DNA of 20,957 bases from a virus, in IMG/VR virus record IMGVR_UViG_3300035661_000369, positions 1 to 20,957 of that record. One strand, written 5' to 3'. The notes under the pieces were generated by a model, which did not search any database, was not told the origin of the DNA, and saw nothing but the letters and a program-made list of their open reading frames with translations. The position numbers and the translations under genes are program-made. This document shows positions 1-20,500 of the stretch, one piece after another. Position 1 is the first letter of the stretch. Every line of letters starts with the position of its first letter.

Positions 1-76
1 ATGTACAACACGCACAGTCCGCTGGCTGTGTATTTAGTTCATATTGACTAGCAAATCTAGCAAATTCTTGAATCAC
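1..76 (-). CDS. Second copy of 49-aa small ORF, partial (5' part only)
   Basis: This is a GTG-started reading frame (codon at 76-74) whose first 25 codons are identical to the small ORF at 5703-5852; it runs off the left edge. As in the intact copy, its start overlaps the stop (73-75) of the peptidase reading frame, but here only the last 11 peptidase codons remain. A late-promoter-like box at 144-137 lies about 60 bases upstream and would transcribe it. Whether the protein keeps the same C-terminus or is fused to different sequence cannot be seen here. It could instead be a non-functional relic carried with the repeat. Confidence 0.4.
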   Translation of the reverse strand, partial: MIQEFARFASQYELNTQPADCACCT

Positions 77-109
77 GATTCAACAAAACTAATTACCGAA
101 TTATTCTTT
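1..109. repeat. 109-bp direct repeat, left copy
   Basis: Bases 1-109 are identical to 5777-5885; identity stops at base 110 (c) against 5886 (a). Read on the minus strand, the repeat holds the last 11 codons plus stop of the NlpC/P60-like peptidase gene (here a 3' remnant, 109-73) and the first 25 codons of the small ORF that overlaps that stop (76 leftward). The left limit is unknown because the copy touches the window edge, so the true repeat may be longer only if 5776 and upstream also match. The two copies flank the whole tail-fibre module. Confidence 0.97.
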
Positions 110-136
110 CCCTTTAACTACATTGATCTCATATTG

Positions 137-144
137 TATTTATC
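137..144 (-). promoter_or_regulatory. T4-like late promoter box GATAAATA
   Basis: The minus strand reads GATAAATA from 144 to 137, one base from the T4 late consensus TATAAATA. The same eight bases occur at three other plausible late start points in this window (11842-11835, 17377-17384, 17405-17398). It lies just downstream of the last tail-fibre gene and points left, so it would restart late transcription for genes beyond the left edge. Confidence 0.55.
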
Positions 145-152
145 CCCTACCG

Positions 153-479
153 TCAATAGTAGATATACTTGTCCAGTGCCACGGTTTCAGTTAGCCCTTG
201 AGTATCCGTCATAATCACTTCGTAGTAGTAGGTACCGTCAGCTTGCGTTGCTTGGTCCAGTGTTGGAGTGAATGTGACTTGGCCGTTTGTGGCGGGTGCG
301 ACAATTGTACCCGTCAGCGAATATAATAAATTGGTGCCGAGTGAGTCGGGCGCCTTATCGGTGGTGATGTTCATGACAAAACTGCACCCCGTGATGTCAA
401 TTGGCAAATTCGTAGATGAACTGATGATTGTCAGCAAATCCTTATGTGTATTGCCGCGTCTGCGTCTTATAATTGCCAT
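153..479 (-). CDS. Small adsorption-module protein, BppU-N-like beta fold (tentative)
   Basis: A 108-aa protein and the last gene of the fibre module. The ATG at 479 is preferred over an upstream TTG because AGGAG lies five to six bases before it; the previous gene stops 11 bases upstream. After a basic N-terminus (RRRRG), the pattern of a polar start, 'PIDITG', a strand ending 'SFVMNI', a 'GQVTFTPT' strand, 'ADGTYYYEVIMTD' and a closing 'ALDKYIY' strand resembles the beta-sandwich at the N-terminus of phage BppU-type baseplate/receptor-binding proteins. This is pattern resemblance only. It probably decorates or connects the fibre; a chaperone role is also possible. Confidence 0.7.
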   Translation of the reverse strand: MAIIRRRRGNTHKDLLTIISSSTNLPIDITGCSFVMNITTDKAPDSLGTNLLYSLTGTIVAPATNGQVTFTPTLDQATQADGTYYYEVIMTDTQGLTETVALDKYIYY

Positions 480-490
480 AGTGGCTCCTA

Positions 491-823
491 TCAAATACCT
501 TGTGAAACTGATACGATTGTTACGTCTGGAGTGTAGGCCGTAACAGCTGTATCGCTGTTATACATGCCAATATTCGTTGTAGTGTCGTTTACCACAGCAG
601 AAACGGATATGTCGTTTACCACGGCAGAAACGGATATGTCGTTTACCACGGCGGAGACAGATAGGTCATTTATTACCACTGCAGAGACAGATATGTCATT
701 GATCGTCCCAACGGCGTCGTGAACCAAGATGCTTCCGCCGCCAGTTTTCGGGTGAGTGAGTAAATCCCAAGCCGTGCCAGTGGTTAAACTGGATGCTGCC
801 AACAGATTAGTCCACGCGCTCAT
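491..823 (-). CDS. Fibre-module protein with tandem 9-aa repeats
   Basis: A 110-aa protein of unknown function. The ATG at 823 overlaps the stop of the upstream gene as ATGA, so it is preferred over an in-frame GTG at 838. The N-terminal part has 'AWDLLTHPKTGGGSILVHDAVG', then four near-identical units of the type ISVSAVVND (one is a residue longer), then a Ser/Thr/Val-rich tail. Alternating polar and aliphatic residues in the repeats suggest a beta-solenoid or fibrous shaft segment. It sits between two other fibre-module genes with tight spacing, so a virion tail role is inferred. No catalytic motif is visible. Confidence 0.65.
   Translation of the reverse strand: MSAWTNLLAASSLTTGTAWDLLTHPKTGGGSILVHDAVGTINDISVSAVVINDLSVSAVVNDISVSAVVNDISVSAVVNDTTTNIGMYNSDTAVTAYTPDVTIVSVSQGI
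584..694. repeat. Tandem 27-bp repeats inside a fibre-module gene
   Basis: There are four units: 584-610, 611-637, 638-664 (27 bases each) and 665-694 (30 bases, one extra codon). Units 1 and 2 differ at one base; units 3 and 4 diverge progressively. All keep the reading frame, coding ISVSAVVND-type nonapeptides. The gradient of divergence looks like expansion by slippage or unequal recombination. Confidence 0.93.
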
Positions 824-1200
824 TGTGTATACGACCACACTGCTGTGGCAATATCCGCAGGTGTTGCTCCACCAGCACCAATACTGGTAACTGCGTATGC
901 GGCAGATTGTGTGCGTTCAATATATGCCCCTGGTACTGGGTTGATCGTGCAGTCCAAGTTACCACCGCGGATAACCCAATTTCCAGCTGGAAACTGAAGT
1001 GTCCATCCATTGACAAAAGCAATGGCGGGGAACACCGCCCCGCCACCCAGGCTGACTTCTTTATACGTATGGATGGCGGGATAGATTATAGCATCCGCCC
1101 CGTCCTCAATATCGCGCAGCGCGAGGTGAAACGCCACCATATCTGTAATGGAGGCGTCCGAATGTACTATCCGGCTCGCAAAGTCTACCGTAAGAGACAT
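820..1200 (-). CDS. Conserved phage tail/adsorption structural protein, unknown function
   Basis: A 126-aa protein with an ATG at 1200, eight bases after the 486-aa gene's stop. The middle contains 'LGGGAVFPAI', 'NGWTLQFPAGNWVIRGGNLD', a pattern I associate with a small family of virion-associated proteins found beside tail-fibre genes in unrelated siphoviruses and podoviruses. The C-terminal 'ATPADIATAVWS' motif is also typical of that group. No enzymatic residues stand out. It overlaps the next gene by ATGA, implying coupled translation. The role is inferred from its neighbours and not proven. Confidence 0.7.
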   Translation of the reverse strand: MSLTVDFASRIVHSDASITDMVAFHLALRDIEDGADAIIYPAIHTYKEVSLGGGAVFPAIAFVNGWTLQFPAGNWVIRGGNLDCTINPVPGAYIERTQSAAYAVTSIGAGGATPADIATAVWSYTQ

Positions 1201-1208
1201 TTTATGCC

Positions 1209-2669
1209 TTAAACGTCAGCGTTTCGAATAGCATTAACTGATCCGCCAGTAACAGTTACCGGGAACGTGGTTTCAAATGGCACGATGGGCGATGCCCCGC
1301 CATTACGGACACGAACGCGCGCCGTAAAGTCGGCCACATAGTTAAATGTCCCGCTCGATTCCGATGTTTGCGATGTCTGCTTGTCGATATACGGGAACCA
1401 TACCGATGCAGCAGAGTATCCACCAGACGGTATCGCGGGCGACAACCCAGACACGGTTGTGCCCGATATTCCGGTATAGGTGTGAGGATTATTCGCAATG
1501 CGAATGTACCCTGCGCCAGTAGCAACATCACCCGCAGGCGCACTGGATAGGGTTAGCGTAGTACCAGAAGCGCTTCCTGTTCCTGTAATGCCAGTGGTTG
1601 TGTTGAATCCGCCAGTGCCATTGTCTTTACCTATGAGGATGTAGTCAGTGGACAGCAGATTCCCGGCGGATACGGCGATAACGTTTGGTGGTACTACTGT
1701 GGTGCCATCATCGCTTATCAGTTGATACGCCTGTAAATCCGCGCTATTTAGGCTGTTTACATCTATCCACCAGCCTTGCGCAGCAAAGAACTTGCCGCCA
1801 GATAGTGTACCAAAGGGAGCCGCTTGGACATCATTATAAGCGGCGTCCAGTTTCCGATATTGCCACCCCGCTATACCGTTCAGCGTGGCCGTGCTGTTTT
1901 CATGGCAAGCCCACTGCAAAGCCTGATACACCTCAGTCAGCCGTAACGCACCCGTCCAAGAAATCGTGCCTTTATATAGCTTGGTCACGCTTCCTAATGT
2001 TTTAGTAACAGAACCGAAGGTTAGGGTGACGACACCCGCGGGCGTTGTAGAGGTAACGGTATTTGCACCGCCAGTATAGTTTCCGACAAGCCTGGAAATA
2101 TTGCTGTCGGCCGACACCGACAATGCAGCAACCTGTTCAGAACCAGCGGAACAGTCCACGTCGAAGTGGCTGAATGCGTAACCCCATTCTCTGGACAGCA
2201 CGGTAACAATGCCCGAGTTGATTAGAGCGCCTGCGGTTTTTACCTTAAACAATGCCCTAATCGGCCCGGCAGGCCACCACTTAGTGCCAGAATTATACTT
2301 GGCGCCATTCTGCACAACGTAGTGACTACGACCTGTCAAACCTGAACCGATGGTATTGATGCCGGTATATAACTCCGCCCCGCTTCCTTGCTCAATGGAA
2401 CCGAAGTAAAAGCGCTGGCTTGTTAAGGAGTCAATGTTGACGCCGTTTAGAAGCGTCAGCGCTGACGGTCTAAGAGCATTACGCTTACCAGCAAGTTCCG
2501 ACGGTACAGCGCCTAAGATAGAGACATTATCGTCAGCAGTTACATTCGGATTATCAGCGAGGTCTTGCAACCACGCATGGAGATCAAGCACCGAATAAAC
2601 AGACGTTCCTGCTACACTACGCAAGTCCCCGTTTGTTGCTATACTAAAATCTGTTGCGGTTATAGACAT
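1209..2669 (-). CDS. Tail-fibre-module structural protein (486 aa)
   Basis: ATG at 2669 with GGGGAAG about eight bases upstream. The N-terminus has 'SVYSVLDLHAWLQDLADNP', 'PSELAGKRNALRPSALTLLNGVNID' and 'YFGSIEQGSGAELYTGINTIGS', a combination I recognise from large conserved virion proteins encoded next to tail fibres in several unrelated phages. The C-terminal half (from about residue 330) is rich in Gly, Thr and Ser with short strands, including a 'TGTGSASGTTLTLSSAPAGDVATGAGYIRI' type segment, as in fibre repeats. A fibre shaft or receptor-binding component is likely. Base composition is about 50% G+C, like the rest of this module and unlike the baseplate genes. Confidence 0.75.
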   Translation of the reverse strand: MSITATDFSIATNGDLRSVAGTSVYSVLDLHAWLQDLADNPNVTADDNVSILGAVPSELAGKRNALRPSALTLLNGVNIDSLTSQRFYFGSIEQGSGAELYTGINTIGSGLTGRSHYVVQNGAKYNSGTKWWPAGPIRALFKVKTAGALINSGIVTVLSREWGYAFSHFDVDCSAGSEQVAALSVSADSNISRLVGNYTGGANTVTSTTPAGVVTLTFGSVTKTLGSVTKLYKGTISWTGALRLTEVYQALQWACHENSTATLNGIAGWQYRKLDAAYNDVQAAPFGTLSGGKFFAAQGWWIDVNSLNSADLQAYQLISDDGTTVVPPNVIAVSAGNLLSTDYILIGKDNGTGGFNTTTGITGTGSASGTTLTLSSAPAGDVATGAGYIRIANNPHTYTGISGTTVSGLSPAIPSGGYSAASVWFPYIDKQTSQTSESSGTFNYVADFTARVRVRNGGASPIVPFETTFPVTVTGGSVNAIRNADV

Positions 2670-2681
2670 AAAATCTTCCCC

Positions 2682-3083
2682 TTAATCAAGTTGTTGTTCG
2701 ACATATAGGCTGGTCGATCCTACAGTGGCCGTCTGGCGTGTTTCGTATGGTTTATAGTAGGGTGCCGTGGTTCCTTGCCGCACTTTGATCCGTAGATCGT
2801 TCTTCGGATCGCCGGATTGATACACCCCTAGATTTATGAGCTGCGTCGTGCTTGCAGCTACTCCAAAGAATAGTTGCTGTCCCGTACTGTAAGCCTCAAC
2901 AGATATTGCGGAACCCACTACCACATTGGTTAGAGTCAACGCGAAGTTGCCAATAGAGTCTGTGGGAAGGCGCCCTTTTGAGACGGCCACCCCTCCGCCA
3001 ACAGTAAATGGCCCCCTGGTGCTGGGAACTGATAGCGCGTTCGCGTAGCTAGAGTTCATCGGGGCGAATACAGCGTTAGCCAT
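2682..3083 (-). CDS. Fibre-module protein, unknown function (133 aa)
   Basis: ATG at 3083 overlaps the fibre gene's TAA by one base (TAATG), so the two are translationally coupled. The protein is beta-rich with many Ser, Thr, Val and Gly and no signal peptide or membrane segment. Its C-terminus ('DPKNDLRIKVRQGTTAPYYKPYETRQTA', then a segment ending in EQQLD) matches a pattern I associate with small proteins accompanying tail fibres in other phages. It could be a fibre-associated structural protein or assembly factor; nothing in the sequence decides between them. Confidence 0.7.
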   Translation of the reverse strand: MANAVFAPMNSSYANALSVPSTRGPFTVGGGVAVSKGRLPTDSIGNFALTLTNVVVGSAISVEAYSTGQQLFFGVAASTTQLINLGVYQSGDPKNDLRIKVRQGTTAPYYKPYETRQTATVGSTSLYVEQQLD

Positions 3084-5275
3084 TATGCAAGACTCATATC
3101 AGGGTCGATAAACAGCACTTGCTGCACATTGGTTACTGATGTCCCAATATGCACCTGAGCAATGATCTCGCAACCAGAAGTCATGTCATGCCCCGCCGGA
3201 GTGCTTAGCACGAATTTATACCTGTCAAAGTTGATCGTTCCGCCAGATATCCACGTTGCCTTGGTCCCATTCCACGTAGACCATCCAGTGTTCGTCGATG
3301 GCGTTAATGCTGCGGCAGGGAAAATCTGGCGAGTCGTTAAGTACACGGCTCGTCCATTGGTATCGGTATATGTCAACTCTGCCCAAAGATTGCTGGTATC
3401 AATCCCAGACAACGTGTCATTTAGCAGATATTCCAGAGTAATTGTTCTTGCCCCATTAGCGAGCGAATTGATCTTCGATATGCGTGGGCTAGAGTGAGGT
3501 CTACCTGTTGATGTTTGGCCTGGAATTATGCTGGCGAGGAATTTAATACTCCAAGGGGTCACCCCATCAAGCAGCGTAGCACTAAGCGTTGGAAAGCCCA
3601 GACCAGAAATCCAGTCGCTCTTGCCGCGTATGGTGTTTATCTGGAAATCTCTGGTTACAGCACTAGAAAATATTGATACAGTTCGGTACAAGGTATTATT
3701 ATTACCGTTTCCATACATTGATGCGATTGGATCAAACGCAAAAGCATTGCCAAGATCAGCATTGATAATCAAAATGTTGCCAGCACCTATACCGCTAGAA
3801 CTTTTTACTGATTTGGAGCCCACAAGGCAGTTGATAGCCTTAATCCCATTGATAACTAGATCATTGTTTGCGCTAACACAATTTATTAACCCTGTATGCG
3901 GCGCAGTCGCCCCCGAATTGTCAAATACAAGGTTTCGGATCGTGCCCGAACAGTAAGCGTTCCCCAAGTCGTATATATTATTAGACGTATTGCTGAACGA
4001 CATAAAAATATCGTCAAACATAACACCAGCGCCAGCATCGGCTGAGTTGGAAACAGCTAATTGTGCGTAAATGCCAGTGTTGCTTTGGTAGTCATTATAG
4101 AACCCGACTCCTTTCGCATAACAATTATTCGAAAAAGTCCATGCAAAATATGTACCATTCGTAATAGCGGAGTTTGTGTTATGAAATTGTAAATTAGGTA
4201 GCCCTGTTGAATTTACTTTCCCAACAATTCTTGTGGCTTTGTGAGCAATCAGGGAAAGTGAGTTGGCTAGGTTAGTATCGGACGCCCAATTAACTCTAAA
4301 CACCGGATCGGGTGCGTCAGCATTCCAAGCCGGGACATTAGTCCCGTCATCAAAAATGATATTTGTCGGGAGTGCCGCCGTGCTAAAAGTTGTCGGTGGG
4401 GTTAAGTAGTAATTTGCGTTGTAGCAATACAGAATTTTATTTGAGCGCACATAAATGTTGTCTCCTGGAGATACCGCTCCAAGAAACGGTTGCGTCGCTC
4501 CAAATAACCCGTAGTTTGCAACAGCAATGGCGCTAGGCCACATGACATAAGTATTAAACAGCCATCCCCACGCGCCTGATGTTCCACCCGCAAACTGTAC
4601 TACAGTAGGCGCAGTGCTCCACCCTGACGAAGAAATCGCCATATAACTGTTATTTGCATAGTTCGAGTTGACACTACCCTGACGGGTCATGATATTGACG
4701 ACTGATCCGCTTGCGGATGCAAATATAATGTTGCGCAATTGCGTGAGCGTTGCCGAGACATTCGCGCCAACCGCACCAGTTGCAGCGTTGAGTGCGGTAG
4801 CAATATTCGTCGCCTGGGCATTAACGTCTGAGCCTACGTTAAACTGTGTGGCCGTAGCGCCGGAAGAAACCGCAGTGAGCGTTACCCCTGCAATGGTTAT
4901 GGTATTTCCAGCAGCGGCTACTGCATTTATTGTCAACGAAGCCAGTGCGGGGGTTGCTTGCCCTGGAGCAAGGCCGTCACCATCTTGAGCAACGCCCCAA
5001 GCAGGCATTGCTATACTCGGATTGCCATTCGTGCTTGTTAGTGTCGTGCTCGACAGGGTAAACGAGTTATTGAGGTTGTAAGTTCCTGTTCCTCCCTGCC
5101 CCGTGCCAAGAGACGTAATGAATGTGCCAGCAGGCACACCGACACCAGTTAAAGCCGAACCAATGCCGATAACACCAGATGTCACCGATGACACAGTTAA
5201 GGTGGTACTAGAAACAGAACCAGTAAAGGATGCATTAGTGGCATACAGATAATGGTCGAGATACTTGTTAGCCAT
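3083..5275 (-). CDS. Tail fibre / receptor-binding protein (730 aa)
   Basis: This is the largest gene of the adsorption module. Residues about 17-80 form the common phage domain with 'TTLTVSSVTSG', 'GVGVPAGTFITSLGTGQGGTGTY' and 'LSSTTLT' (a Ser/Thr/Gly repeat domain widespread in phage fibres). Residues about 110-200 contain the 'ITIAGVTLTAVSSGATATQFNVG' plus 'ATNIATALNA' domain. The centre (about 230-590) is rich in Asn, Ile, Gly and Val short strands, as in right-handed beta-helix fibres. The last 130 residues look like a beta-sandwich tip. ATG at 5275 overlaps the upstream gene by eight bases (ATGGCTAA). It probably determines host recognition; a depolymerase activity is possible but no catalytic residues can be assigned. 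Confidence 0.85.
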   Translation of the reverse strand: MANKYLDHYLYATNASFTGSVSSTTLTVSSVTSGVIGIGSALTGVGVPAGTFITSLGTGQGGTGTYNLNNSFTLSSTTLTSTNGNPSIAMPAWGVAQDGDGLAPGQATPALASLTINAVAAAGNTITIAGVTLTAVSSGATATQFNVGSDVNAQATNIATALNAATGAVGANVSATLTQLRNIIFASASGSVVNIMTRQGSVNSNYANNSYMAISSSGWSTAPTVVQFAGGTSGAWGWLFNTYVMWPSAIAVANYGLFGATQPFLGAVSPGDNIYVRSNKILYCYNANYYLTPPTTFSTAALPTNIIFDDGTNVPAWNADAPDPVFRVNWASDTNLANSLSLIAHKATRIVGKVNSTGLPNLQFHNTNSAITNGTYFAWTFSNNCYAKGVGFYNDYQSNTGIYAQLAVSNSADAGAGVMFDDIFMSFSNTSNNIYDLGNAYCSGTIRNLVFDNSGATAPHTGLINCVSANNDLVINGIKAINCLVGSKSVKSSSGIGAGNILIINADLGNAFAFDPIASMYGNGNNNTLYRTVSIFSSAVTRDFQINTIRGKSDWISGLGFPTLSATLLDGVTPWSIKFLASIIPGQTSTGRPHSSPRISKINSLANGARTITLEYLLNDTLSGIDTSNLWAELTYTDTNGRAVYLTTRQIFPAAALTPSTNTGWSTWNGTKATWISGGTINFDRYKFVLSTPAGHDMTSGCEIIAQVHIGTSVTNVQQVLFIDPDMSLA

Positions 5276-5690
5276 TTAAGATCGTCTCCATTTCTGTCTT
5301 GGTTATGAGACCAAGAGCAACATACAACGACAGAATCTGAGAAATGGACGCATCATCCAGGTTAATTTCTGACGCCGCCTTGAAGTCCTCCAGCCCCGAT
5401 CTTATATCGCGCTTCTGATCCGCCGTCAGAAGTGGGCTTGACTCAAACGTAGCATTGAATTCATCCACATAAGGCCGCGCTGTGTCTGGGAATAATCGTC
5501 TGAACTCCAGTTTCGATAATATGCGTCTCCCGCCGTATACGAGTTGAGGCATTTGTGCTACTGGCGCGTCGATAACTTCGGTGTAATCAAACGACGAGAA
5601 CGGAAATAAGTCCAACTCAGTGAGAGCTTGGGCCTCAAAGCGATATTCCTCTTTCCCGGATGCTTTATTTGTGACTGAAAAAACTGGCAT
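5268..5690 (-). CDS. Fibre-module N-terminal connector-type protein (140 aa)
   Basis: First gene of the fibre module, ATG at 5690. Its ribosome binding site (AGGAA) overlaps the stop of the small ORF at 5703. The central segment 'GGRRILSKLEFRRLFPDTARPYVDEF' resembles a family of short proteins encoded just before tail fibres in many phages ('KLaFLNRFTD...ID' type), followed by an alpha-helical region ending in 'ALGLITKTEMETIL'. A connector or assembly-factor role is inferred from position. No enzymatic motif is visible. G+C is intermediate to high, matching the module downstream. Confidence 0.7.
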   Translation of the reverse strand: MPVFSVTNKASGKEEYRFEAQALTELDLFPFSSFDYTEVIDAPVAQMPQLVYGGRRILSKLEFRRLFPDTARPYVDEFNATFESSPLLTADQKRDIRSGLEDFKAASEINLDDASISQILSLYVALGLITKTEMETILNG

Positions 5691-5702
5691 TATTTAAAGT
5701 TC

Positions 5703-5852
5703 CTATTGTGATCCACACTGATATCTCCATATCCATTGCCAAATCATCCATGCCAACTCAGTGTGCTTGTCTTGATATGTACAACACGCACAGTCCGCTG
5801 GCTGTGTATTTAGTTCATATTGACTAGCAAATCTAGCAAATTCTTGAATCAC
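5703..5852 (-). CDS. 49-aa Trp/Cys-rich small protein
   Basis: A GTG-started frame whose start overlaps the peptidase stop as GTGA; the stop TAG is at 5705-5703. The N-terminus is 'MIQEFARFASQYELNTQPAD', then a CACC cluster (Cys 21, 23, 24), and a tryptophan-rich end 'LAWMIWQWIWRYQCGSQ' with Trp at 35, 38, 40 and 42. Coupling to the peptidase upstream and to the fibre module downstream (its stop overlaps that gene's ribosome site) supports translation. The Trp-rich stretch could be membrane-interacting, and given the spanin/peptidase neighbours a lysis-related role is conceivable. I do not recognise a family. Its first 25 codons recur at 76-1. Confidence 0.5.
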   Translation of the reverse strand: MIQEFARFASQYELNTQPADCACCTYQDKHTELAWMIWQWIWRYQCGSQ

Positions 5853-5885
5853 GATTCAACAAAACTAATTACCGAATTATTCTTT
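5777..5885. repeat. 109-bp direct repeat, right copy
   Basis: Identical to bases 1-109. This copy is in its natural context: it spans the 3' end of the peptidase gene and the 5' half of the 49-aa ORF, both complete here. The repeat is therefore derived from this locus and the left copy is the duplicate. Copy spacing is 5776 bases, enclosing all the fibre genes. Confidence 0.97.
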
Positions 5886-6343
5886 AAAAGATATTCAACA
5901 GTATTGGTTGGAACATCTGGAATTTCTTCAAAGTTGGGATCAATCGTTGCCAATGTATCATTTACTAATTTTGCACATTCCCAAACTTTTTCGTCTTTAG
6001 TGTTCAGACCAAGAAATGCCTTGATTGCTTCCCATTGTGAATATGGTTTCCCAACCGTTTCTAACATCTTCTCTTCTGCTTCTTTGCTCCAACTATATGG
6101 AGTCTTGATAAGGTAGAATGGTGTTAGTTTTGAAAGAGGGTAAATTCGCACAAGTGGAATTACTGCTTCAACCACGAACACTCTTTCTCCAACAACCCAA
6201 GCAATCCCAACATGGGAATATTCCGATCTAGTAAAAATGCGAACAATGTTAAGTTTGATGTCGCGCAAACTCTTCCAACTTCCCCCAGACCAGGCCAATA
6301 TGTCGCCACTTTTAATCTGAGATCTGACATCAAGATATTTCAT
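5849..6343 (-). CDS. Permuted NlpC/P60 (YiiX/YaeF-like) cysteine peptidase
   Basis: A 164-aa protein, probably a cell-wall or lipid-targeting cysteine hydrolase. The ATG at 6343 overlaps the o-spanin stop (ATGA) with AGGA six to eight bases upstream; the TTG further upstream is unlikely. Order of motifs: 'SGDILAW' (12-18), 'SEYSHVGIAWV' (40-50) with His44, 'VVEA' with Glu59, then 'VWECAKLV' with Cys123. His-Glu before Cys is the circular permutation typical of YiiX-type NlpC/P60 enzymes. There is no signal peptide, so access to peptidoglycan would depend on holin or membrane disruption. It lies directly behind the spanin pair, implying a lysis role. Its last 11 codons are duplicated at 109-73. 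Confidence 0.8.
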   Translation of the reverse strand: MKYLDVRSQIKSGDILAWSGGSWKSLRDIKLNIVRIFTRSEYSHVGIAWVVGERVFVVEAVIPLVRIYPLSKLTPFYLIKTPYSWSKEAEEKMLETVGKPYSQWEAIKAFLGLNTKDEKVWECAKLVNDTLATIDPNFEEIPDVPTNTVEYLLKNNSVISFVES

Positions 6344-6606
6344 TTGGCGTCCTTTACACAATCGTTCAGCAAATTTGACAATTCGAGCTCAAACTGCTTT
6401 CGTTGTTGTCTTTCAACTCTTAACGCAATCATCATATCCCAGATATCAGCGTTGATATTTAATTTATCTACCTCGAATGTTGGAGTATCGGGAACAATAA
6501 CTTGACATGGGACATAAACAGGAACCTTGACTTCAGTTGGCTCCTTAACGGTCTGTCCAGCACATCCAACCAAAAACAACAATACAACTAACGGAAAGAT
6601 TTTCAT
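6340..6606 (-). CDS. Outer-membrane spanin subunit (Rz1-like lipoprotein)
   Basis: An 88-aa protein with an N-terminal signal of hydrophobic residues ending in a lipobox LVGC (Cys15), followed by a Pro/Val-rich stretch (about 21-45, 'KVPVYVPCQVIVPDTP') and a helical C-terminus (50-85). The lipid anchor, Pro-rich linker and small size are those of o-spanins, which join an i-spanin across the periplasm to fuse the membranes at the end of lysis. The ATG at 6606 overlaps the i-spanin stop (ATGA). At about 73 mature residues it is longer than lambda Rz1. Assigned by architecture and gene pair; sequence identity to known spanins was not assessed. Confidence 0.82.
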   Translation of the reverse strand: MKIFPLVVLLFLVGCAGQTVKEPTEVKVPVYVPCQVIVPDTPTFEVDKLNINADIWDMMIALRVERQQRKQFELELSNLLNDCVKDAK

Positions 6607-7019
6607 TTGGTCTTCCTCTCTTCGATCAATTCTTTCATAAAATCAACCCTTGCTGCTTCACATAAATCCTTAGAAGGTTTTGGAGTGTTCTTAATCGTAT
6701 TTATAGCAATGTCCGACACTTTCTTTTGCTCCGCCAATCTCTTAACAGTTTCGTCGATCATGACTTGTTTTTGGTCAGTTATTTCCTTTAACTTTTCAAC
6801 TGCAGCATTCTGTGTTTTTATTACTTCTTGATAATTCTCAATTGTTTTTGTATAATTTACAATTCGAGAATTCAATTCAGTTACAATGGGTTCATAATGG
6901 TTTCTGGTATGCTTAGCCCCAGACATTGTCCCCACAATAAAAACCACGACCACAAGAATTCCAACCCAAAGAATCTTCGAACTCAAGATTGGTCTAATCA
7001 TTGTTAAAAACGAAAACAT
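6603..7019 (-). CDS. Inner-membrane spanin subunit (Rz-like)
   Basis: A 138-aa protein with one N-terminal membrane segment (about 17-34, 'LWVGILVVVVFIVGTMSG'), a basic residue after it, and a long heptad-like helix (about 40-115) rich in Glu, Lys, Gln, Ile and Val that ends in a 'DLCEAAR' segment, a feature common in Rz-type proteins. ATG at 7019 with a strong AAAGGAG site about six bases before it. It is immediately followed by, and overlaps, the lipoprotein gene, the standard i-spanin/o-spanin arrangement. It would sit in the inner membrane with the coiled coil in the periplasm. Confidence 0.83.
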   Translation of the reverse strand: MFSFLTMIRPILSSKILWVGILVVVVFIVGTMSGAKHTRNHYEPIVTELNSRIVNYTKTIENYQEVIKTQNAAVEKLKEITDQKQVMIDETVKRLAEQKKVSDIAINTIKNTPKPSKDLCEAARVDFMKELIEERKTK

Positions 7020-7030
7020 TGTATTCTCCT

Positions 7031-9424
7031 TTAAGAAATATCAACAGTCACAAACACATTCGTGTTATTTTGTTCAAACCTTTTTGGGTTCGTCTTGAAC
7101 AAATTTGAATATCGACCAATATACGCAAGTGACTCGTAAAAATCGCCCACATTGGTTTGATTGGTGCTATAATTACCAATTAGTTGAGGAATAACGACTT
7201 GTCGTTGATTCCAGATAAACGATTTCGTTTCTATGTTATATTGACCATCCGCAGCGAAATATCTTGTTGGGTCGTCTGAGGATAATATTTCTGGCGTCGA
7301 CATATAACTAAATCTTGTCTTTGGAGAAAGTGGATCATCTATTACATCTCCAGCCATTCTCTCGAGTAACTTTGTATTTAAATATGGAGTCCCAAAGGAA
7401 CTCGAATTGTTAAACAACGAAAATACTTCAAACTGTTCATTTTCTATATTTAATGCCGAATCAACTACATAATGAGAATCTAACCAGATTTGCTTCGAGG
7501 TTTCACCGTTTGCAATCATTGTCGAGAAAGAAGATGTACTCGGTTGGATGTAATCATATTCTCCCAATACATATGCAGCAACTTCGACTTCCTTTCGTTT
7601 ATATGGATTATTGATGAGTTCGTTGAAATCCAGAATTGTAAAATCGTAAAATTCGCGATATACGTTTGGATCTCTATAAGTGGTATTTAAAATAGCATCG
7701 TCGACGACATATTCTTCCAATAACCACCAGTCTCTTGCTTTAATTTCTAATTCAATCGCTGCGAGAGATGAAGAATTATCATATTCATCAGCGTGAGCAT
7801 ATCCATCGACAACGAATGGAGAATCGCAAATATATCCAGAAGTATCTAACACGTCTCCGATAATCATATCTTCGATATCGGCAATTTCTTGTATTGCAAG
7901 TTTGTTTACGTCGATTTTATTATTGGTATTGAACGAATTTCCATTCCACATTTCAACCTTTAAGAAAAGATTGATGATGTCCTCAAGAAGACCAACCCCA
8001 ACAACGAACGCATCATAGTCCACAGTATAGAAAGTATATGATGATAGTTCGTCTTGGATGTTCCATCCATTCATGGTCATATTGAGTTCTGTAACATCTC
8101 GAAACTCGCCAAACATCTTGAACCCAGCGGGATGTGCAACCTCTTTAATGATGTCTGCATAATGCGACACGTCAACGCCCGCTTTCAGAACATATGAATA
8201 ATCTTGATAGAAATTGGAATCTTGAATTCTATCCTTATCGTTTAAGAACCCGTCTTTATTACTATATCCAGAATAAGTATGAACTGCTCCACTAAAAAGT
8301 TTCAAGAAGCAGTTTCTCCCAATGGACACAACAGATCCAGTAGGTGCCACATTAACATCAAACCCAGACCCTACAATGTCCAGTTCTTTAACGGATCCAT
8401 TTCCAGATATATTGGCTAAAACAGATGCTCCACTTCCATTTACAGACGAAATCGTTACGGCTGGAGACTTGAAATATCCATTGCCAGCATCAATAATTCG
8501 TATAGACGAAATATTGCCATCTACTGTAACGGATTCGACGATTGCTCTAGCACCACCACCGCCCGTTTCCATATTGTCAAAAACAACTTTATCTCCGACC
8601 GCATAGTTAGACCCAGGAGCCACGACTTTAATTGACGAAACGACTCCGCCAAGAACAGATTTAACATTCAAAAGACATTTCGAAGAAAACGATACTGGAA
8701 CTTCAATTGTTTCACCTGGGACAAAGTCATGTCCACCAGAAATAATTTCAATACGATTAACAATTGGGGATGAAATAAACTGAACAAATATTCCAGGTGA
8801 AACCTCACATCTAATCGTTTCGTTAGGTTGGAACCCGATTCCTTCTATATCTTCAACGAAGAGTTCTGCAACTTTCGTTGCCCCGACTAGATAACAAATA
8901 ATGTTATTTACACGAGCCCGAGTCTTGGATGTTTCGCCATATATGCTCTTTGAAATTAATTTGAACACATCGGACGTTTCACCCGAATAGTGAACCTTCA
9001 TCGAAGAAACGGTTTCCCATTTTCCATTAGAAGGTCTTAGCAAATCATTTCTTGGATAATAGAACTCAACTGGTTTATTATAAATTGCTCTGAAGAAAAG
9101 TTCGAATGCTTTTTCAGTTCCCTTTGCTTTATAGAAATCTAAAATATGTTTGATTAGTAATGTTTTGTCACTTGCAATTACATCTGGAAAATCTGTTAGA
9201 AATGTATTTTTAAAGAACTGAATGAATTCTGCCTTAGTGGTGTCAATATTTGAGTAATTCGGAATATTTGCGCCAGCACTTAATGGATTACCAGGTTTCC
9301 CTAGCCATTCGTAGTATGCTTCTAAAAATGGAATGATGAGTGCTTGATCTTCAAGCAAATAACGTGGAAGAACACTAGCAACGTTTGACTGAAACGAAAT
9401 TACGGTATCTAATGCGGTTGCCAT
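7031..9424 (-). CDS. Large baseplate/virion structural protein, cyanomyovirus-type (797 aa)
   Basis: Follows gp6 by 15 bases; ATG at 9424 with AAGGA about five bases upstream. The N-terminal 150 residues ('LPRYLLEDQALIIPFLEAYYEW', 'FYKAKGTEKAFELFFRAIYN', 'PVEFYYPRNDLLRPSNGKWE') match a domain I associate with virion structural proteins encoded after gp6 in cyanomyoviruses and related T4-like phages. Residues about 225-365 hold several 'I..I.I...G.GY...P.V.IS' type strand repeats. The C-terminal half is less distinctive, with many aromatic and acidic residues. It occupies the place of T4 gp7/gp8, and a peripheral baseplate wedge or fibre-attachment role is inferred. Confidence 0.75.
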   Translation of the reverse strand: MATALDTVISFQSNVASVLPRYLLEDQALIIPFLEAYYEWLGKPGNPLSAGANIPNYSNIDTTKAEFIQFFKNTFLTDFPDVIASDKTLLIKHILDFYKAKGTEKAFELFFRAIYNKPVEFYYPRNDLLRPSNGKWETVSSMKVHYSGETSDVFKLISKSIYGETSKTRARVNNIICYLVGATKVAELFVEDIEGIGFQPNETIRCEVSPGIFVQFISSPIVNRIEIISGGHDFVPGETIEVPVSFSSKCLLNVKSVLGGVVSSIKVVAPGSNYAVGDKVVFDNMETGGGGARAIVESVTVDGNISSIRIIDAGNGYFKSPAVTISSVNGSGASVLANISGNGSVKELDIVGSGFDVNVAPTGSVVSIGRNCFLKLFSGAVHTYSGYSNKDGFLNDKDRIQDSNFYQDYSYVLKAGVDVSHYADIIKEVAHPAGFKMFGEFRDVTELNMTMNGWNIQDELSSYTFYTVDYDAFVVGVGLLEDIINLFLKVEMWNGNSFNTNNKIDVNKLAIQEIADIEDMIIGDVLDTSGYICDSPFVVDGYAHADEYDNSSSLAAIELEIKARDWWLLEEYVVDDAILNTTYRDPNVYREFYDFTILDFNELINNPYKRKEVEVAAYVLGEYDYIQPSTSSFSTMIANGETSKQIWLDSHYVVDSALNIENEQFEVFSLFNNSSSFGTPYLNTKLLERMAGDVIDDPLSPKTRFSYMSTPEILSSDDPTRYFAADGQYNIETKSFIWNQRQVVIPQLIGNYSTNQTNVGDFYESLAYIGRYSNLFKTNPKRFEQNNTNVFVTVDIS

Positions 9425-9439
9425 ATAATCCTTTGCTGA

Positions 9440-11215
9440 TTACACAATCGTTTCTGCTTGCACTTGAACATCAATCTTTTCTGGAGAGATATAAAGCACT
9501 TGATTAAATTGTGGAATGATATCGTTATTTTCACAGACCCAAGTTATTTCAGAAAACTCACCGACAAAGTTTTCAACAACCAAATTATCTAGAACAATTG
9601 TTCCGTTAGTATAATCAACAGATCCAGCTTTATAATTTGGTAAATAAACTTTATTTGAAAATTCATTCAGTTTATAAGCAACGATGTTTCCCTTCGAATC
9701 ATCTTCCAATATATACGAACTCAACTGGTCGGAACTGAAATTCATTGGAGTTGAGCGAACAGACCCAAGTTTAATTGGATTCTTGAAATCGACCTTCAAA
9801 ATTTGAGTTGAGTTTATTTTTGGAACAAAACGATATACTAGGGTTACAGTTGAGATATTCCCAATCACTCCAGATACCTGGTCAATGCTTGACAATAAAT
9901 TTGAAAGATATAAAGGTTTTCCGTGTCCTTCTAATGCATCAATCCCAAATGCAATAATCTTATCGTTTACCGAACTCTTTAAAGCAGTTAAATCATTTAT
10001 AAGTCTCGGATTGTACTTAACAACAGTTTTCACTCCGACAAAAATATTTTGCGGGTCAACGATAGTTGGGACAATACGAAGAAATGATCTATCCAACAAA
10101 ATATCATTTATAATCATTCTCTTATTTTCTTGAGTCAGTTTTGTTCCGTCTTGCGTAGCAATAGACACGAACACTTTTCCATATTTTGGAGGATTCTCGG
10201 CTTCGCCACCCCAAACGTTAACTGATTTGGCGTATGGGAATTTGTCCATTATAACTGCTCGATAATCCTGTGTGGTGACACATCTATCTTGAGACGAATA
10301 CATCTTTCGGGCAGTTTGTCTAATTGAGTTGATTCCCTCAGCAGAAGCACCGCCAGTTGATGTAACATCAGTTGTTACAATCGGAGTAAATCCACCAATC
10401 GATCCAACTGTGAATGTTCTTGCAAAATTCCCAAATATTCCATTAGTAGCAATATATTCTAATCTAACCGTGTCGCCAACACTTAACGATTTACCTAAAA
10501 CGCCATCTCCGAAATAAACTTCGAATTGCATTGAATCGACTTCTTGAATATAGTAAATTGTTGAAGCATTAGTTAATCCAAGAATAGAGTTTGCTTCTGT
10601 ATAAAGAGAAAAAGTTGAACCACCAGATGGCTTTACATATACGCGAAGCGTCGATATATCCGCATTATTATTTGGAATAATAAATCTATCGGATGCTGGA
10701 TTTACAACGACGAAATCGTTCGTTATAATCTCGCCTTCATAGATCGGAAGATTTGTAATTTGAAACTGACCTGGATTGGTTATTGCATTCGTTGGAAAAA
10801 TTGAAACAGAATCTCTGTTTACGAATGTGAATATATTTGATTTAATTCTAGTTGAAAACTTTGTTCCTTTTGGAAGTTCAAGATTCACATAGTTCAAAGG
10901 CACCCCTTCGAACGTCAAAGATACTTGAGCCTGAGAAGCAACGATTGATCTTGGTGTATATCCAACCAATTTAGCAAGGGACACGACACTCGATCTAAGA
11001 ATTGCACTATCCAAAAACATTTCATTGGATAGCATATTTGCTAAATAGGCATATTGCTGAGAGTTATATGCTAACACCTCAATGATAGCATTTAGCCCAG
11101 ACCCATCAAAATCGTAATCAGTAAAGGTTGGATTATTTGAAAGAAAACTTTTTAAACTTTCTTTCAAACCATCATAATCTAACGAGGTAACATTAGCGGA
11201 AACGATTGAAGTCAT
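9440..11215 (-). CDS. 6: Baseplate wedge protein gp6
   Basis: A 591-aa protein (T4 gp6 is 660 aa), the ring-forming component of the baseplate wedge. Recognised by the N-terminal 'LDYDGLKESLKSFLSN', 'FDGSGLNAIIEVLAYNSQQYAYLANMLSNEMFLDSA' and 'LVGYTPRS' segments, the gp6/baseplate-J-like signature, and by the central 'RKMYSSQDRCVTTQDYRAVIMDKFPYAKSVNVWGGE' region. ATG at 11215 overlaps the gp25 stop as ATGA. The 25-6 order is conserved in many T4-like relatives outside the T-even group, whereas in T4 itself gene 25 lies elsewhere. It works with gp25, gp53 and gp48 in building the wedge and inner baseplate. Confidence 0.93.
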   Translation of the reverse strand: MTSIVSANVTSLDYDGLKESLKSFLSNNPTFTDYDFDGSGLNAIIEVLAYNSQQYAYLANMLSNEMFLDSAILRSSVVSLAKLVGYTPRSIVASQAQVSLTFEGVPLNYVNLELPKGTKFSTRIKSNIFTFVNRDSVSIFPTNAITNPGQFQITNLPIYEGEIITNDFVVVNPASDRFIIPNNNADISTLRVYVKPSGGSTFSLYTEANSILGLTNASTIYYIQEVDSMQFEVYFGDGVLGKSLSVGDTVRLEYIATNGIFGNFARTFTVGSIGGFTPIVTTDVTSTGGASAEGINSIRQTARKMYSSQDRCVTTQDYRAVIMDKFPYAKSVNVWGGEAENPPKYGKVFVSIATQDGTKLTQENKRMIINDILLDRSFLRIVPTIVDPQNIFVGVKTVVKYNPRLINDLTALKSSVNDKIIAFGIDALEGHGKPLYLSNLLSSIDQVSGVIGNISTVTLVYRFVPKINSTQILKVDFKNPIKLGSVRSTPMNFSSDQLSSYILEDDSKGNIVAYKLNEFSNKVYLPNYKAGSVDYTNGTIVLDNLVVENFVGEFSEITWVCENNDIIPQFNQVLYISPEKIDVQVQAETIV

Positions 11216-11589
11216 CTTGTTCTCTTCAGGATTACTGAAATATCTACGTCTTTGTTAAGCGATAAAATTCTAAAATAAATCCTCACAGCTAATGCTGGCA
11301 CATCTTCATAAAAATCTGATATGCATTTCAAAAACTTTACTCTTGGTTCATATCTATCAATTAAATTCTTGATATCAACTTGAATTTGTGCATTCTGAAT
11401 TTCAGTATAGGTCTCAAACAGAAGAGCAGAAATATTTCCGCCTCTATATGGACTAAACGGAATTTCGTAATAATTGGTAAGTATCAGATGCTTGACAGCA
11501 GCCTTTATCGCTTGTTCGTCAGTGAGCTGAACAACATCCTTTGTATTAGGATGCATCAGAAACGAAAGACCTACATCAACATAACGCAT
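11212..11589 (-). CDS. 25: Baseplate wedge protein gp25
   Basis: A 125-aa protein (T4 gp25 is 132 aa) with the gp25/W fold found in all contractile injection systems, where it nucleates the sheath at the baseplate. Seen here: 'LSFLMHPNTKDVVQLTDEQAIKAAVKHLILTNYYEIPFSPYRGGNI', then 'LFETYTEIQNAQI', 'RYEPRVKFLKCISDF' and a final pair of beta strands ('LAVRIYFRIL', 'KDVDISVILKR'). ATG at 11589 overlaps the upstream 75-aa gene's TAA by one base; its own stop overlaps gp6. These overlaps make the three genes a coupled unit. Confidence 0.93.
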   Translation of the reverse strand: MRYVDVGLSFLMHPNTKDVVQLTDEQAIKAAVKHLILTNYYEIPFSPYRGGNISALLFETYTEIQNAQIQVDIKNLIDRYEPRVKFLKCISDFYEDVPALAVRIYFRILSLNKDVDISVILKRTR

Positions 11590-11816
11590 TACTGCATCGC
11601 TTCGTCAAAGTAATCGTTTACGACAGTGGTTGCATCTTCAACAGAAATCCCATATTCTTTCGAAATCTTCTTGGCAGCGTCGGTTAGACGAGAAGCAATC
11701 CATTCGTCTCCGCCACTTTTCTTATATTTCTTGATATCCCTGTTCAATATCTGTTCGAGTTCAGAGTGAATTTCCTTCATCTTACCTTCTAAGATATATT
11801 CTTTAAACGTTTTCAT
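11589..11816 (-). CDS. 75-aa protein with capsid-targeting-like N-terminus
   Basis: Unknown protein inserted between gp5 and gp25. The N-terminus MKTFKEYILEG closely resembles the T4 internal-protein capsid-targeting sequence (as in IPI, MKTYQEFIAEA), and the residues I-L-E before G fit the I/L-x-E cleavage rule of the gp21 prohead protease. The rest is helical and charged (Lys/Glu-rich, 'DIKKYKKSGGDEWIASRL'). ATG at 11816 with GGAAT about six bases upstream and a late promoter box about 20 bases upstream. A small protein packaged in the head and injected with DNA is possible. In related phages similar N-termini also occur on other small proteins, so this remains a hypothesis. Confidence 0.75.
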   Translation of the reverse strand: MKTFKEYILEGKMKEIHSELEQILNRDIKKYKKSGGDEWIASRLTDAAKKISKEYGISVEDATTVVNDYFDEAMQ

Positions 11817-11834
11817 TTTGAATTCCTTTTAACT

Positions 11835-11842
11835 TATTTATC
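11835..11842 (-). promoter_or_regulatory. T4-like late promoter box GATAAATA
   Basis: The minus strand reads GATAAATA from 11842 to 11835, in the short gap between the gp5 stop (11850) and the ATG at 11816. Late promoters of this type start transcription a few bases downstream of the box, leaving a leader of about ten bases that includes the GGAATTC ribosome site. It would drive the 75-aa gene, 25, 6 and possibly the genes beyond. Confidence 0.7.
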
Positions 11843-11849
11843 TACCCAC

Positions 11850-14507
11850 TCAAGCATACTTCTTTCCATCACATCCAACAAGTCCAGATAGAATTCCACT
11901 ATTTCCAGAACCGAAAGTCGAACAGGGCTTGTGTCTATTTCCACTTGCAACTGCCGAAACATGGAACACTTCGGAGTGTTGGTGCTCCAAAATGAATTGG
12001 TCAAAATCAACCGCAGCCATGATTTCCCTTGCTCTATTTATTCCCAATAAAGGATCTGCCCTTGAAACATCGGAAAATTGAAGATCGACTGCTTGCCCTT
12101 TACAATGTTGCGAAACTCTACCATTTCCAGCTTGAGTATTTCCATATCTAAGCCCAGATACTATTTTCATACTAGGCCCATAAATTGCTAACAATGGCTC
12201 AAGAACAGTTGTTGCAAGAACCCTAAGATTTTCGAGTATTTGCTGTTCTGTCAACCCGTATTGTGCCTTTAATCCATTCTTTGCTAAATCTTTCACCCAA
12301 TAATGTGTGGACAACCTATCATCAGTTATAACATCGTCCGGAGTTCCAGGGGGTGTTGGTTCTGGAGTGGTTGGGGTCGATGTTGCCGCATCTTGACTTT
12401 GTATTTCAGTCATTCCGTTTGAAATTGCAGTAGATTCTTCATTTTTTGGAACAGTTTCGTCTGAGTCATTTTCATAAAGTTCAACTGTTCCATCATCCAG
12501 AATCATTCTATTTACGGAAACATCTAAAGTATCGCCACACACGTTTCCTGTTTCGACTGAAAATGATCTATATTCTCTATCTGTTGATTCTAAGCCGACA
12601 AGATGAAGAACTTCCCTCGCATTCACATACGTATCACCGCGTCCTGAAACTGCTGCGGTATATCCAGTCAAAAATGCAGTATCGCTCGCTGAAACTGCCG
12701 CGGTGTTCCCAGACAAACTTGCAGTGTCGCTTGCTATAATATTAACATTTTTATTCGAAGATATTTTGAAATCGCCTTTGGTTTCAAAGGTCATATCATC
12801 TTCACTCAAAAAACTCAATTTTCCCTTCACTGAAAGCGAATAATCTCCGCCAACATAAATCTTCTTGTCTCTTAGGTTGATTTCAAAATTATCTTGTTGT
12901 GTTCTAAAAACAATATTACCATCTGGGTGGAATTCAATAAACGATCCCTGGCGATGATAAATTTGAACTCTCTCTGCCCCAACCGTATCGTCCAATTCAA
13001 TTACATGACCAGATTCCGTGCATGTCACGTGATTTAATGGATATTTCGAATTATATTTACTTTTTGGCTCTTCCCAGACTTTGCCACCACATGCAACATT
13101 TACGTTGGTTACTCTATTCTGTTCTTTAACCCGAACAATAGTGTTATCAATTTTTTCATTTCTTGCCAACCGATGAACATCGGATTCTCCAACCCAAGAC
13201 TTTCTTGGGTAGTATTCTTGTGGATCTCTAAACCCCAATTTATTGGAAACTCTTTGTCTACCAGGAGGCGGCGGGAATCTTCTTTGATTTTCGGCTTGTT
13301 GTGCTGGCGTTATGTCTTCTTGTCCAGTTGGTGGAATAGTTGGTGCTTTCTCTGTTTGTTCTCCACAAGCATCACACAGTACAAGTAGTTCGGCCGATTC
13401 GGATGTGCAACGATTTCTAATACCATTCCAATAACTTGGGCTACTTCTAAAAAGTGTCTGAACATTGTTCTTAATATAATCAAAACACGTTTGAACGATT
13501 TCCGCGTCACACATCGTTGAAATATCTTTTTCATTCAACGCTTTCGTAACGACTGATGTGTTGGGGCCAAGCCAAACTCCAATCAAAAACAACATTTCTT
13601 GAATTGGATATCCACGCTTTCCTAAATCTGGATTTTTACGAACTTGTGGTGCATAGTTAACCGATCTAGCAAATTCATATTGCTTTTGTTTGAAGTTCGG
13701 ATCGGATGCAAGAGAAACCCATGCCTTGTCAAATGCTGGAGTTCCTGGTGTCATTCCAGCAAACGTCGATGAATATCCAGACGATTCAATGAATTGAAGG
13801 ACTGGAGATTTCCCCTTTGAAAGAGCATTCTGTCTACCAGAACTCGTCGCTGGCATATAAGACGCAAACTGGAAACATCCATATGACGCTCCACCTAAAT
13901 CTCCACTAGCCTTACCAAGATAATCGTTTACCATGGTAGGAACATTTCCAGATTCACGATTTGCGGTCAATTCTCCAATCTTGTCCAACATAGAACCAGA
14001 TGAAACAGAAGATGAAGCCGAAGATTGAGTTGAACTAGGAGAATTAGATGAATTTAAAATCTGAGTTTTGTTGATTTGATTTCCGTTTGAATCAACCGAA
14101 ACGGCGCCAGGATCATCTGGATTATACGACGTCAACCCAGCTGTTGTCGGGTCGGCGGCATTGGTTATTGATCCGAATGCGTCGGTAACCAAGTCGTCGG
14201 TTCTTTCTGAAACAAGATGTGGATCGGCTGGAATCCCACCAATCGTTCCGAGAATTAACGGTTCTTGGAACGATCCCTCATCTTTAAAAACCACTACAAC
14301 CCACGTTCCCTCAACTGGACCCATCGGTGTATGACCAATCCCATTCATTGCCGCACTTGTTATCGGCTGAATCGGTTGTGCCCAAGGAAGATCTGCTACT
14401 GGAAGAACTGTTTTGTTGTCAGTATGAACACCGACTACTCGAACACGACAACGACCCAACTTATCTGGGTCATTCCGACTTTCTACACAAGCATAATACA
14501 GTTTCAT
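11850..14507 (-). CDS. 5: Baseplate hub spike gp5 with two peptidoglycan hydrolase modules
   Basis: An 885-aa protein (T4 gp5 is 575 aa). Residues 1-95 are the OB-fold of gp5/VgrG ('SRNDPDKLGRCRVRVVG', 'EGTWVVVVFKDEGSFQEPLILGTIGG'). A Ser-rich linker (150-172) leads to a lysozyme/transglycosylase-like domain (about 172-380) with 'RESGN' (Glu185) and 'GGASYGCFQF' (205-214). Residues about 430-690 are the triple-stranded spike helix ('EEPKSKYNSKYPLNHV', 'TESGHVIELDDTVGAERV', then short repeats such as AVSASDTA). After a Pro/Thr linker, residues about 735-865 form an M15-type peptidase with metal ligands His801, Asp808 ('HCKGQAVDLQF') and His849 ('FHVSA'). It pierces the cell wall during infection. 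The start at 14507 overlaps the hub gene (ATGA). Confidence 0.9.
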   Translation of the reverse strand: MKLYYACVESRNDPDKLGRCRVRVVGVHTDNKTVLPVADLPWAQPIQPITSAAMNGIGHTPMGPVEGTWVVVVFKDEGSFQEPLILGTIGGIPADPHLVSERTDDLVTDAFGSITNAADPTTAGLTSYNPDDPGAVSVDSNGNQINKTQILNSSNSPSSTQSSASSSVSSGSMLDKIGELTANRESGNVPTMVNDYLGKASGDLGGASYGCFQFASYMPATSSGRQNALSKGKSPVLQFIESSGYSSTFAGMTPGTPAFDKAWVSLASDPNFKQKQYEFARSVNYAPQVRKNPDLGKRGYPIQEMLFLIGVWLGPNTSVVTKALNEKDISTMCDAEIVQTCFDYIKNNVQTLFRSSPSYWNGIRNRCTSESAELLVLCDACGEQTEKAPTIPPTGQEDITPAQQAENQRRFPPPPGRQRVSNKLGFRDPQEYYPRKSWVGESDVHRLARNEKIDNTIVRVKEQNRVTNVNVACGGKVWEEPKSKYNSKYPLNHVTCTESGHVIELDDTVGAERVQIYHRQGSFIEFHPDGNIVFRTQQDNFEINLRDKKIYVGGDYSLSVKGKLSFLSEDDMTFETKGDFKISSNKNVNIIASDTASLSGNTAAVSASDTAFLTGYTAAVSGRGDTYVNAREVLHLVGLESTDREYRSFSVETGNVCGDTLDVSVNRMILDDGTVELYENDSDETVPKNEESTAISNGMTEIQSQDAATSTPTTPEPTPPGTPDDVITDDRLSTHYWVKDLAKNGLKAQYGLTEQQILENLRVLATTVLEPLLAIYGPSMKIVSGLRYGNTQAGNGRVSQHCKGQAVDLQFSDVSRADPLLGINRAREIMAAVDFDQFILEHQHSEVFHVSAVASGNRHKPCSTFGSGNSGILSGLVGCDGKKYA

Positions 14508-15778
14508 ACCGGCACCTTTGGATTATTATACGCATCGCGGATTAGTTCAACTGACATTCGGTAACCCTCAAGAGTTACGATATGTCTAACGGCAGATACC
14601 ATCCATTTTCCGGACAGCAATGGATCTTTATGTTCTTCTTTTGTTGTAACTGCGTCCGATCTCTGGTCAGCTCCAACATTCGGAAGTTGAAGATGAACAT
14701 TCATTCCACACCGAAGATCAAAAAACCCAGGAACATTCATCCTAATTCGAACGTAATTGGATGCTTCTCTCAACATTTGAGTTCGTAGATAGTAATTAGT
14801 AGGATTGAACGCACTTGTCTGAACATAATTCTTTACGTTGACTGAAGAATCCCGCTCTTCAAATGCTGACTTAAAAATTGTCTTGGTATAGACTAATGGA
14901 TTATTTGACGGTTCGTTGCTTGAATCGTCATAGAAGTCGAGATAGTCTAATTTGCGTCTTTCCACTCTGCGTTCTAAATCGTCATGAACCCATAATGTAG
15001 ACGACTCAAGTCCCGATTCAAACATACTAAGAGTATCAAACGTGTTCACGATCTCATATGTTGACACTGTAAATGGGTCAATGGTTCCAGTTTTCATTGG
15101 TTCATATGAATAACGTATTTCATCATTTGTTCCAGTTGTTGGGTTCTTATAAGTCGCAATTGGGGCACGAAGCAAAGTCTTAATGCTTTGAAACTTAAAC
15201 CCGCTCATTGTTTCAAAAAACATAAATCCAGCAGCACCGGCAGTCGTATATGCCTTGCTCGCCAACCAATTCAATGCTTTAAATGGTTTCCACATCGGAA
15301 ATACAACATGGTGGATAGAATTTTGATTTGTCGCTTCGATATCAAACTTTTTGTTGGTGTTCAAAGATTTGAACACCTTTGCCGCCATATTTGAATATAT
15401 GTCCGTCATTGCAAACGAAATATTGGATGCTTCGTTTGCAATCATTTCCATTGAACCGAAGTTTATTAAATATGATTCGAGAGTGTCTGATATAGTTTCT
15501 CTATTAGTTACCGAATAAATCCAAAAGTTAAACTTCAACGGTTCCGAAGACGACGCATTGTCAAACTCAACATAAAGACGTTCTTGCCCAGTTAATGGAT
15601 AATATCGAATCAGCCCAAACGAGTCAGTTACAAATACAGATCCAGTAACACAAGATGAATAGATATCTTCAAATATGCTCAATTCACCGATAATCGGAGT
15701 AATGTCAATCTCATCATTCTCATTTATAATGAGAATCTTATTGATTTTTATTTGGGCAGGAAAGAATTGAGTTGCCAT
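14504..15778 (-). CDS. 27: Baseplate hub protein gp27-like
   Basis: A 424-aa protein (T4 gp27 is 391 aa) that would form the trimeric hub joining the tail tube to the gp5 spike. The N-terminus has 'IDITPIIGELSIFEDIYSSCVTGSVFVTDSFGL' and 'PLTGQERLYVEF', the first barrel pattern of gp27/VgrG hubs. The middle has 'VFPMWKPFKALNWLASKAY', and the C-terminus has 'RCGMNVHLQLPN' and 'DPLLSGKWMVSAVRHIV', the usual closing barrel. It starts at an ATG two bases after the gp53 stop, with AGGA about ten bases upstream, and overlaps gp5 by ATGA. The direct 27-5 adjacency fits their physical partnership; in T4 these genes are apart. Confidence 0.85.
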   Translation of the reverse strand: MATQFFPAQIKINKILIINENDEIDITPIIGELSIFEDIYSSCVTGSVFVTDSFGLIRYYPLTGQERLYVEFDNASSSEPLKFNFWIYSVTNRETISDTLESYLINFGSMEMIANEASNISFAMTDIYSNMAAKVFKSLNTNKKFDIEATNQNSIHHVVFPMWKPFKALNWLASKAYTTAGAAGFMFFETMSGFKFQSIKTLLRAPIATYKNPTTGTNDEIRYSYEPMKTGTIDPFTVSTYEIVNTFDTLSMFESGLESSTLWVHDDLERRVERRKLDYLDFYDDSSNEPSNNPLVYTKTIFKSAFEERDSSVNVKNYVQTSAFNPTNYYLRTQMLREASNYVRIRMNVPGFFDLRCGMNVHLQLPNVGADQRSDAVTTKEEHKDPLLSGKWMVSAVRHIVTLEGYRMSVELIRDAYNNPKVPV

Positions 15779-15780
15779 TA

Positions 15781-17361: not shown

Positions 17362-17376
17362 TTGAACCCACCGAGA

Positions 17377-17384
17377 GATAAATA
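17377..17384 (+). promoter_or_regulatory. Rightward late promoter box GATAAATA for gene 4 operon
   Basis: The plus strand reads GATAAATA at 17377-17384, about 33 bases before the GTG start of gene 4. It and the leftward box at 17398-17405 lie only 13 bases apart and cross over each other: each reads across the other, so the two late transcripts would begin inside the opposing promoter region. Confidence 0.75.
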
Positions 17385-17397
17385 ACTTGTAATCAAC

Positions 17398-17405
17398 TAT
17401 TTATC
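17398..17405 (-). promoter_or_regulatory. Leftward late promoter box GATAAATA for baseplate operon
   Basis: The minus strand reads GATAAATA from 17405 to 17398, about 36 bases before the gp48 ATG. It is the only candidate at the head of the leftward baseplate genes and would produce a leader of roughly 25-30 bases. Confidence 0.75.
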
Positions 17406-17417
17406 GTTTGGGAAACC

Positions 17418-17870: not shown

Positions 17871-17879
17871 GTGCCAACC

Positions 17880-18344: not shown

Positions 18345-18425
18345 CAGAAAGGCCAAGGTTTTACGGCGTGCTTTTAACTTGTTCCAATAGTATATTAGTG
18401 TGATTTCGTCAAAGTTGAACAATTA

Positions 18426-18433: not shown

Positions 18434-18438
18434 CGTAT

Positions 18439-19720: not shown

Positions 19721-19721
19721 T

Positions 19722-20491: not shown

Positions 20492-20500
20492 AGTATTTCC

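Follow-up and report, generated by a model that had tools for sequence, protein, structure and literature searches.

The window analyzed here, a 20,957-bp stretch, is the entire IMG/VR record IMGVR_UViG_3300035661_000369 (class linear); its base 1 is a raw contig end with no sequence further left. To the right of position 5849 lie T4-like genes encoding a spanin pair, gp6-, gp25-, gp53- and gp5-type baseplate proteins, and a tail-tube cap. The synteny of the four baseplate genes places the phage among the T4-like viruses, and distant relatives of this backbone are found among Pseudomonas, Acidovorax, Methylophilales, and cyanobacterial phages. The gp5-type baseplate hub (11850–14507) combines a VgrG3-like C-terminal domain with one that is M15-peptidase-like. 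A protein with a TnsA-like endonuclease N-terminal domain is encoded on the plus strand at 17418–17870, adjoining the lysozyme gene. A TnpB-type (IS605 OrfB) gene lies within 18346–19717, its TnpA partner not visible; this ~1.37-kb stretch is absent from the 98%-identical sibling virus described below and is thus a polymorphic insertion directly after the lysozyme gene. Rfam and tRNA scans found nothing.

The backbone gene nearest the left end, a C92-like (YaeF/YiiX) peptidase gene on the minus strand (5849–6361), adjoins a block of seven open reading frames (ORFs) plus a 49-aa ORF, where the original prediction had counted six fibre genes. Judged from its G+C content (0.486 over 153–5848 vs. 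0.385 in the backbone), this 5.7-kb block is foreign. All of its genes are on the minus strand, and the block is headed by a conserved Cys/Trp-rich gene of 49 aa (5703–5852), whose GTG start overlaps the peptidase stop and which is present in every intact cassette version seen. Cys21, Cys23, and Cys24 of its product are invariant, several Trp residues accompany them, and the protein belongs to no known family. There follow, leftward, genes for a 140-aa protein (5268–5690; phrog_25252), a 730-aa tail-fibre-like protein whose N-terminus matches tail fibre phrog_38233 (3083–5275), cassette proteins of 133 aa (2682–3083), 486 aa (1209–2669; matching no known family), and 126 aa (820–1200), and a 115-aa protein (491–838). 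The last of these contains 27-bp tandem-like repeats (VNDISVSAV) at 583–702, at the left exchange boundary discussed below; the matching place in the sibling holds a different repeat (AYVQDTPI), and SQGI closes both frames. At the far end, a 113-aa gene (153–494; phrog_1084) shows weak Ig-like/BppU_N similarity. Positions 110–152, also on the minus strand, are the leader of the next backbone gene, with a late-promoter-like ATAAATA at 137–143.

Several features suggest a receptor-binding role for the cassette: its location, with baseplate genes on one side and neck genes on the other; the N-terminal match of the 730-aa protein to a tail fibre; a lectin-like domain in the sibling's cassette; and the pattern of exchange. 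The putative fibre function itself rests on that one weak family match together with gene position and exchange pattern. Purifying selection acts on the 140-, 730-, and 486-aa genes (dN/dS 0.04–0.13). AlphaFold models of the 730- and 486-aa proteins were too poor for use, and a PDB sequence search gave no useful match. There was no sign of an invertible cassette of the Mu G-segment type: no inverted repeat pair surrounds 1–5885, and no invertase was found among the window proteins scanned.

As originally predicted, the block lies between perfect direct repeats (hereafter R): bases 1–109 and 5777–5885 agree at 109 of 109 positions and in the same orientation, an identity that rejects a chance match. 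ORF coordinates confirm that the right copy is in its natural place, covering the final 12 codons of the peptidase and the first 25 codons of the 49-aa ORF. All that the left copy contains is this end of the peptidase gene and the opening portion of the small ORF. A genome terminal repeat was likewise rejected, with the second copy internal at 5777 and the right end of the window matching nothing. An exact search for R in other viral contigs found none, and a second R is absent from all other cassette-bearing records.

A sibling virus, 3300035180_000343, with a record of 129 kb, matches the window at 98% identity over 5701–14361, 14302–18345, and 19718–20957. Between its small ORF and its last cassette gene, it carries five unrelated genes, one of them encoding the lectin-like domain, and nothing there aligns to approximately 508–5700 of the window. 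Both small end genes are retained, the 113-aa gene at 94% DNA identity. R occurs once in the sibling, at the peptidase. On the 3' side of its 113-aa gene is a leader with GGATAAATA and AAAAGGGAAAAGATAAAGATG, followed by a 175-aa gene and then neck and baseplate genes. The window tracks this leader to about base 110, ~10 bases before the start of the next gene, and there jumps into R at a short shared stretch. The natural gene order to the left of the cassette is therefore very probably that of the sibling, with the left R a jump away from that order. A search for siblings using the downstream gene and leader pattern showed this region only in the known sibling, along with one more contig (4.4 kb) that begins within the downstream gene. 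With a single T4-like sibling to go on, it is uncertain how many swaps took place and in which direction.

The same multi-gene block occurs in phages with unrelated backbones. At least four others carry it, 88–89% identical in DNA to the window's copy; two of these have siphovirus-type tail genes, a third is contractile, and one is of unassigned type. Besides the block, phage B encodes a tape measure and a central fibre J of 1693 aa; phage C, a different J protein, a portal, and a terminase; and phage D, a gp6-type baseplate protein and a tail sheath. In phage E, the block adjoins a terminase, a DNA polymerase lies elsewhere, and the left end of the block is missing. The upstream flanks of the block in B–E have a G+C content of 0.52–0.56. 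Contigs L028 and L029 also carry it, ahead of genes of unassigned type. Furthermore, the 49-aa ORF heads several different cassette versions, and the cassettes of B–D and of the sibling have only the two end genes in common. A further version was present in other backbones (contigs L042, L046, and L048), where an 862-aa protein ends in the window's 133-aa protein; swaps therefore also happen inside the block. Searches of isolate phages and plasmids with the cassette, and of bacterial genomes for hosts, gave no match.

Divergence along the block points to where the exchange may happen. Identity to B–E is 75–77% in the 49-aa gene, 81–85% at 5600–5702, and 86–95% from 5599 to 820, then drops to about one third at 491–672, placing the left exchange boundary within that interval; the 113-aa gene is 77–83% identical to those of B–D. 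Between window and sibling, backbone genes have a dS of 0.03–0.12, the 49-aa gene 0.36, and the 113-aa gene 0.22, while against the other phages dS exceeds 1 in both end genes and is 0.3–0.65 in the middle genes; the end-gene values are rough because these genes are short. Because of these divergence patterns, the end genes appear to be long-standing residents that may serve as homology arms for replacement of the middle.

The edges of R do not coincide with those of the cassette. On the right, the module boundary falls inside R, at the start of the small ORF, and alignments with the other phages stop between 5846 and 5810; on the left, 43 bases of resident leader separate the cassette from R. 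These positions bear on the original prediction, in which a foreign cassette had been inserted with duplication of a 109-bp junction and could be removed by a single crossover between the copies. Repeat geometry and the foreign composition of the block fit such an insertion. However, in the sibling the cassette at this locus has the same two end genes without any second R, the module boundary is inside R rather than at its edge, and the intervening leader means that R does not abut the cassette, so we consider this origin highly improbable. A relative with one R and no fibre module had been proposed as a check; the sibling has the single R but carries its own cassette. R as the frame or vehicle of the module was thus not borne out, given the single R in the sibling's cassette locus, the straddling of the right module boundary, and the lack of a second R elsewhere. 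The idea of an exchangeable foreign adsorption-type cassette was nonetheless right, on grounds other than those first offered: the sibling's different cassette, the sharing with unrelated phages, and the G+C step. The original prediction had also named a contig-end artefact as its alternative, and with base 1 at the contig end and a single R in the sibling, that alternative explains the left copy better.

For the left copy of R (1–109), the likeliest explanation is a junction at the contig end, chimeric or rare, rather than a frame. Its length is informative here. The overlap at a contig break corresponds to the largest k of a de Bruijn assembly (PMC10914622), and by that rule the 127-base exact overlaps with which contigs of the same environment (L029, L046, and L048) break are as expected from assembly at k = 127. 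An ordinary k-mer overlap is accordingly disfavoured for R. A match of 109 rather than 127 bases instead points to a dead end supported by few reads, such as a chimeric read or a rare molecule, though this is an argument and not a proof: the 127-base rule is taken from same-environment contigs, and the window's assembler may differ. The same length counts against our own account in that, if assembly was at k = 127, 109 matching bases require a read-limited dead end and not an ordinary graph overlap. The left R resembles the contig-end overlaps treated by COBRA (PMC10914622) in that an exact terminal sequence is repeated elsewhere and lies at a contig end, but it differs in being 109 long, as opposed to the largest k (127 in same-environment contigs); given this difference, one has to suppose a read-limited dead end or a different assembler.

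Alternatively, the left R may be genomic, a mark that the 5776-bp unit of R plus cassette was duplicated in tandem or excised as a circle, illegitimate recombination having joined the leader beyond the last cassette gene to the peptidase 3' end. An exact direct repeat in the correct orientation, with a short shared stretch at the junction, is what such an event would leave, and a contig is expected to stop at such a repeat. We nevertheless consider it unlikely, as the sibling has a single R, samples with 127-base break overlaps would leave 127 matching bases rather than 109, and a full duplication should also show a fork into the resident leader. Less likely still is that the left R opens a second, alternative cassette with its own small ORF, in a fibre-cassette array switching by repeat recombination. 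Although the 49-aa ORF heads several cassette versions and the contig ends just within this ORF, two small ORFs were never seen in one record, neck genes come after the sibling's single cassette, and a copied peptidase tail would be unexpected in an array. Taken more broadly, a genomic left R with tandem or alternative fibre cassettes, each headed by the small ORF and switching between identical repeats, is doubtful; if true, it would be a natural host-range switch in a T4-like phage.

Our preferred account, in which the left R is a junction at the contig end, can be set out as follows. The region 153–5852 would be the host-recognition (tail-fibre-type) cassette of a T4-like phage, whose 49-aa (head) and 113-aa (tail) genes probably remained with the T4-like lineage through replacement of the middle. 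Homologous recombination within or next to the end genes may have exchanged the middle genes, with the replacements drawn, at least once, from a pool that also supplies unrelated phages in the same environment. The left R would play no part in this exchange, being a chimeric or rare-junction tail at the contig end: there, the sequence would quit the resident leader at a few bases of microhomology and re-enter the peptidase end. We consider this account as a whole, comprising an exchangeable host-recognition cassette, resident end genes, and a left R outside the mechanism, to be reasonably probable.

The closest precedent comes from Alteromonas phages A5, V22, and P24, which have a host recognition module in common (Gonzalez-Serrano et al. 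2023, PMC10579305). That module spans three morphologies at ~59% sequence similarity and comprises ten genes, including distal-tail parts and a tested fibre and chaperone (PMC10579305). Like it, the block described here is a multi-gene module, putatively receptor-binding, in phages with otherwise unrelated genomes. Unlike it, the block is shared at 88–89% DNA identity, and is therefore more recent, across at least five backbones in one environment; it also has conserved small end genes, and its role is predicted from sequence. In T-even phages, tail fibre genes undergo allelic exchange between close relatives via conserved flanking sequence. Here, too, fibre-type genes would be swapped between close relatives through conserved flanking sequence, but the donors would include unrelated phages, and the whole gene set between two small end genes is replaced.

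Our data thus add a new, recent, and wide case of the known exchange of host-recognition modules between unrelated phages. They also carry a caution, that exact repeats at contig ends should not be taken as mobile-element boundaries. One receptor-binding-type block circulates among at least five unrelated backbones in one environment, its copies almost 90% identical in DNA. Exchange probably takes place at the two conserved end genes, and modular host-range exchange thereby becomes directly testable inside a single community.
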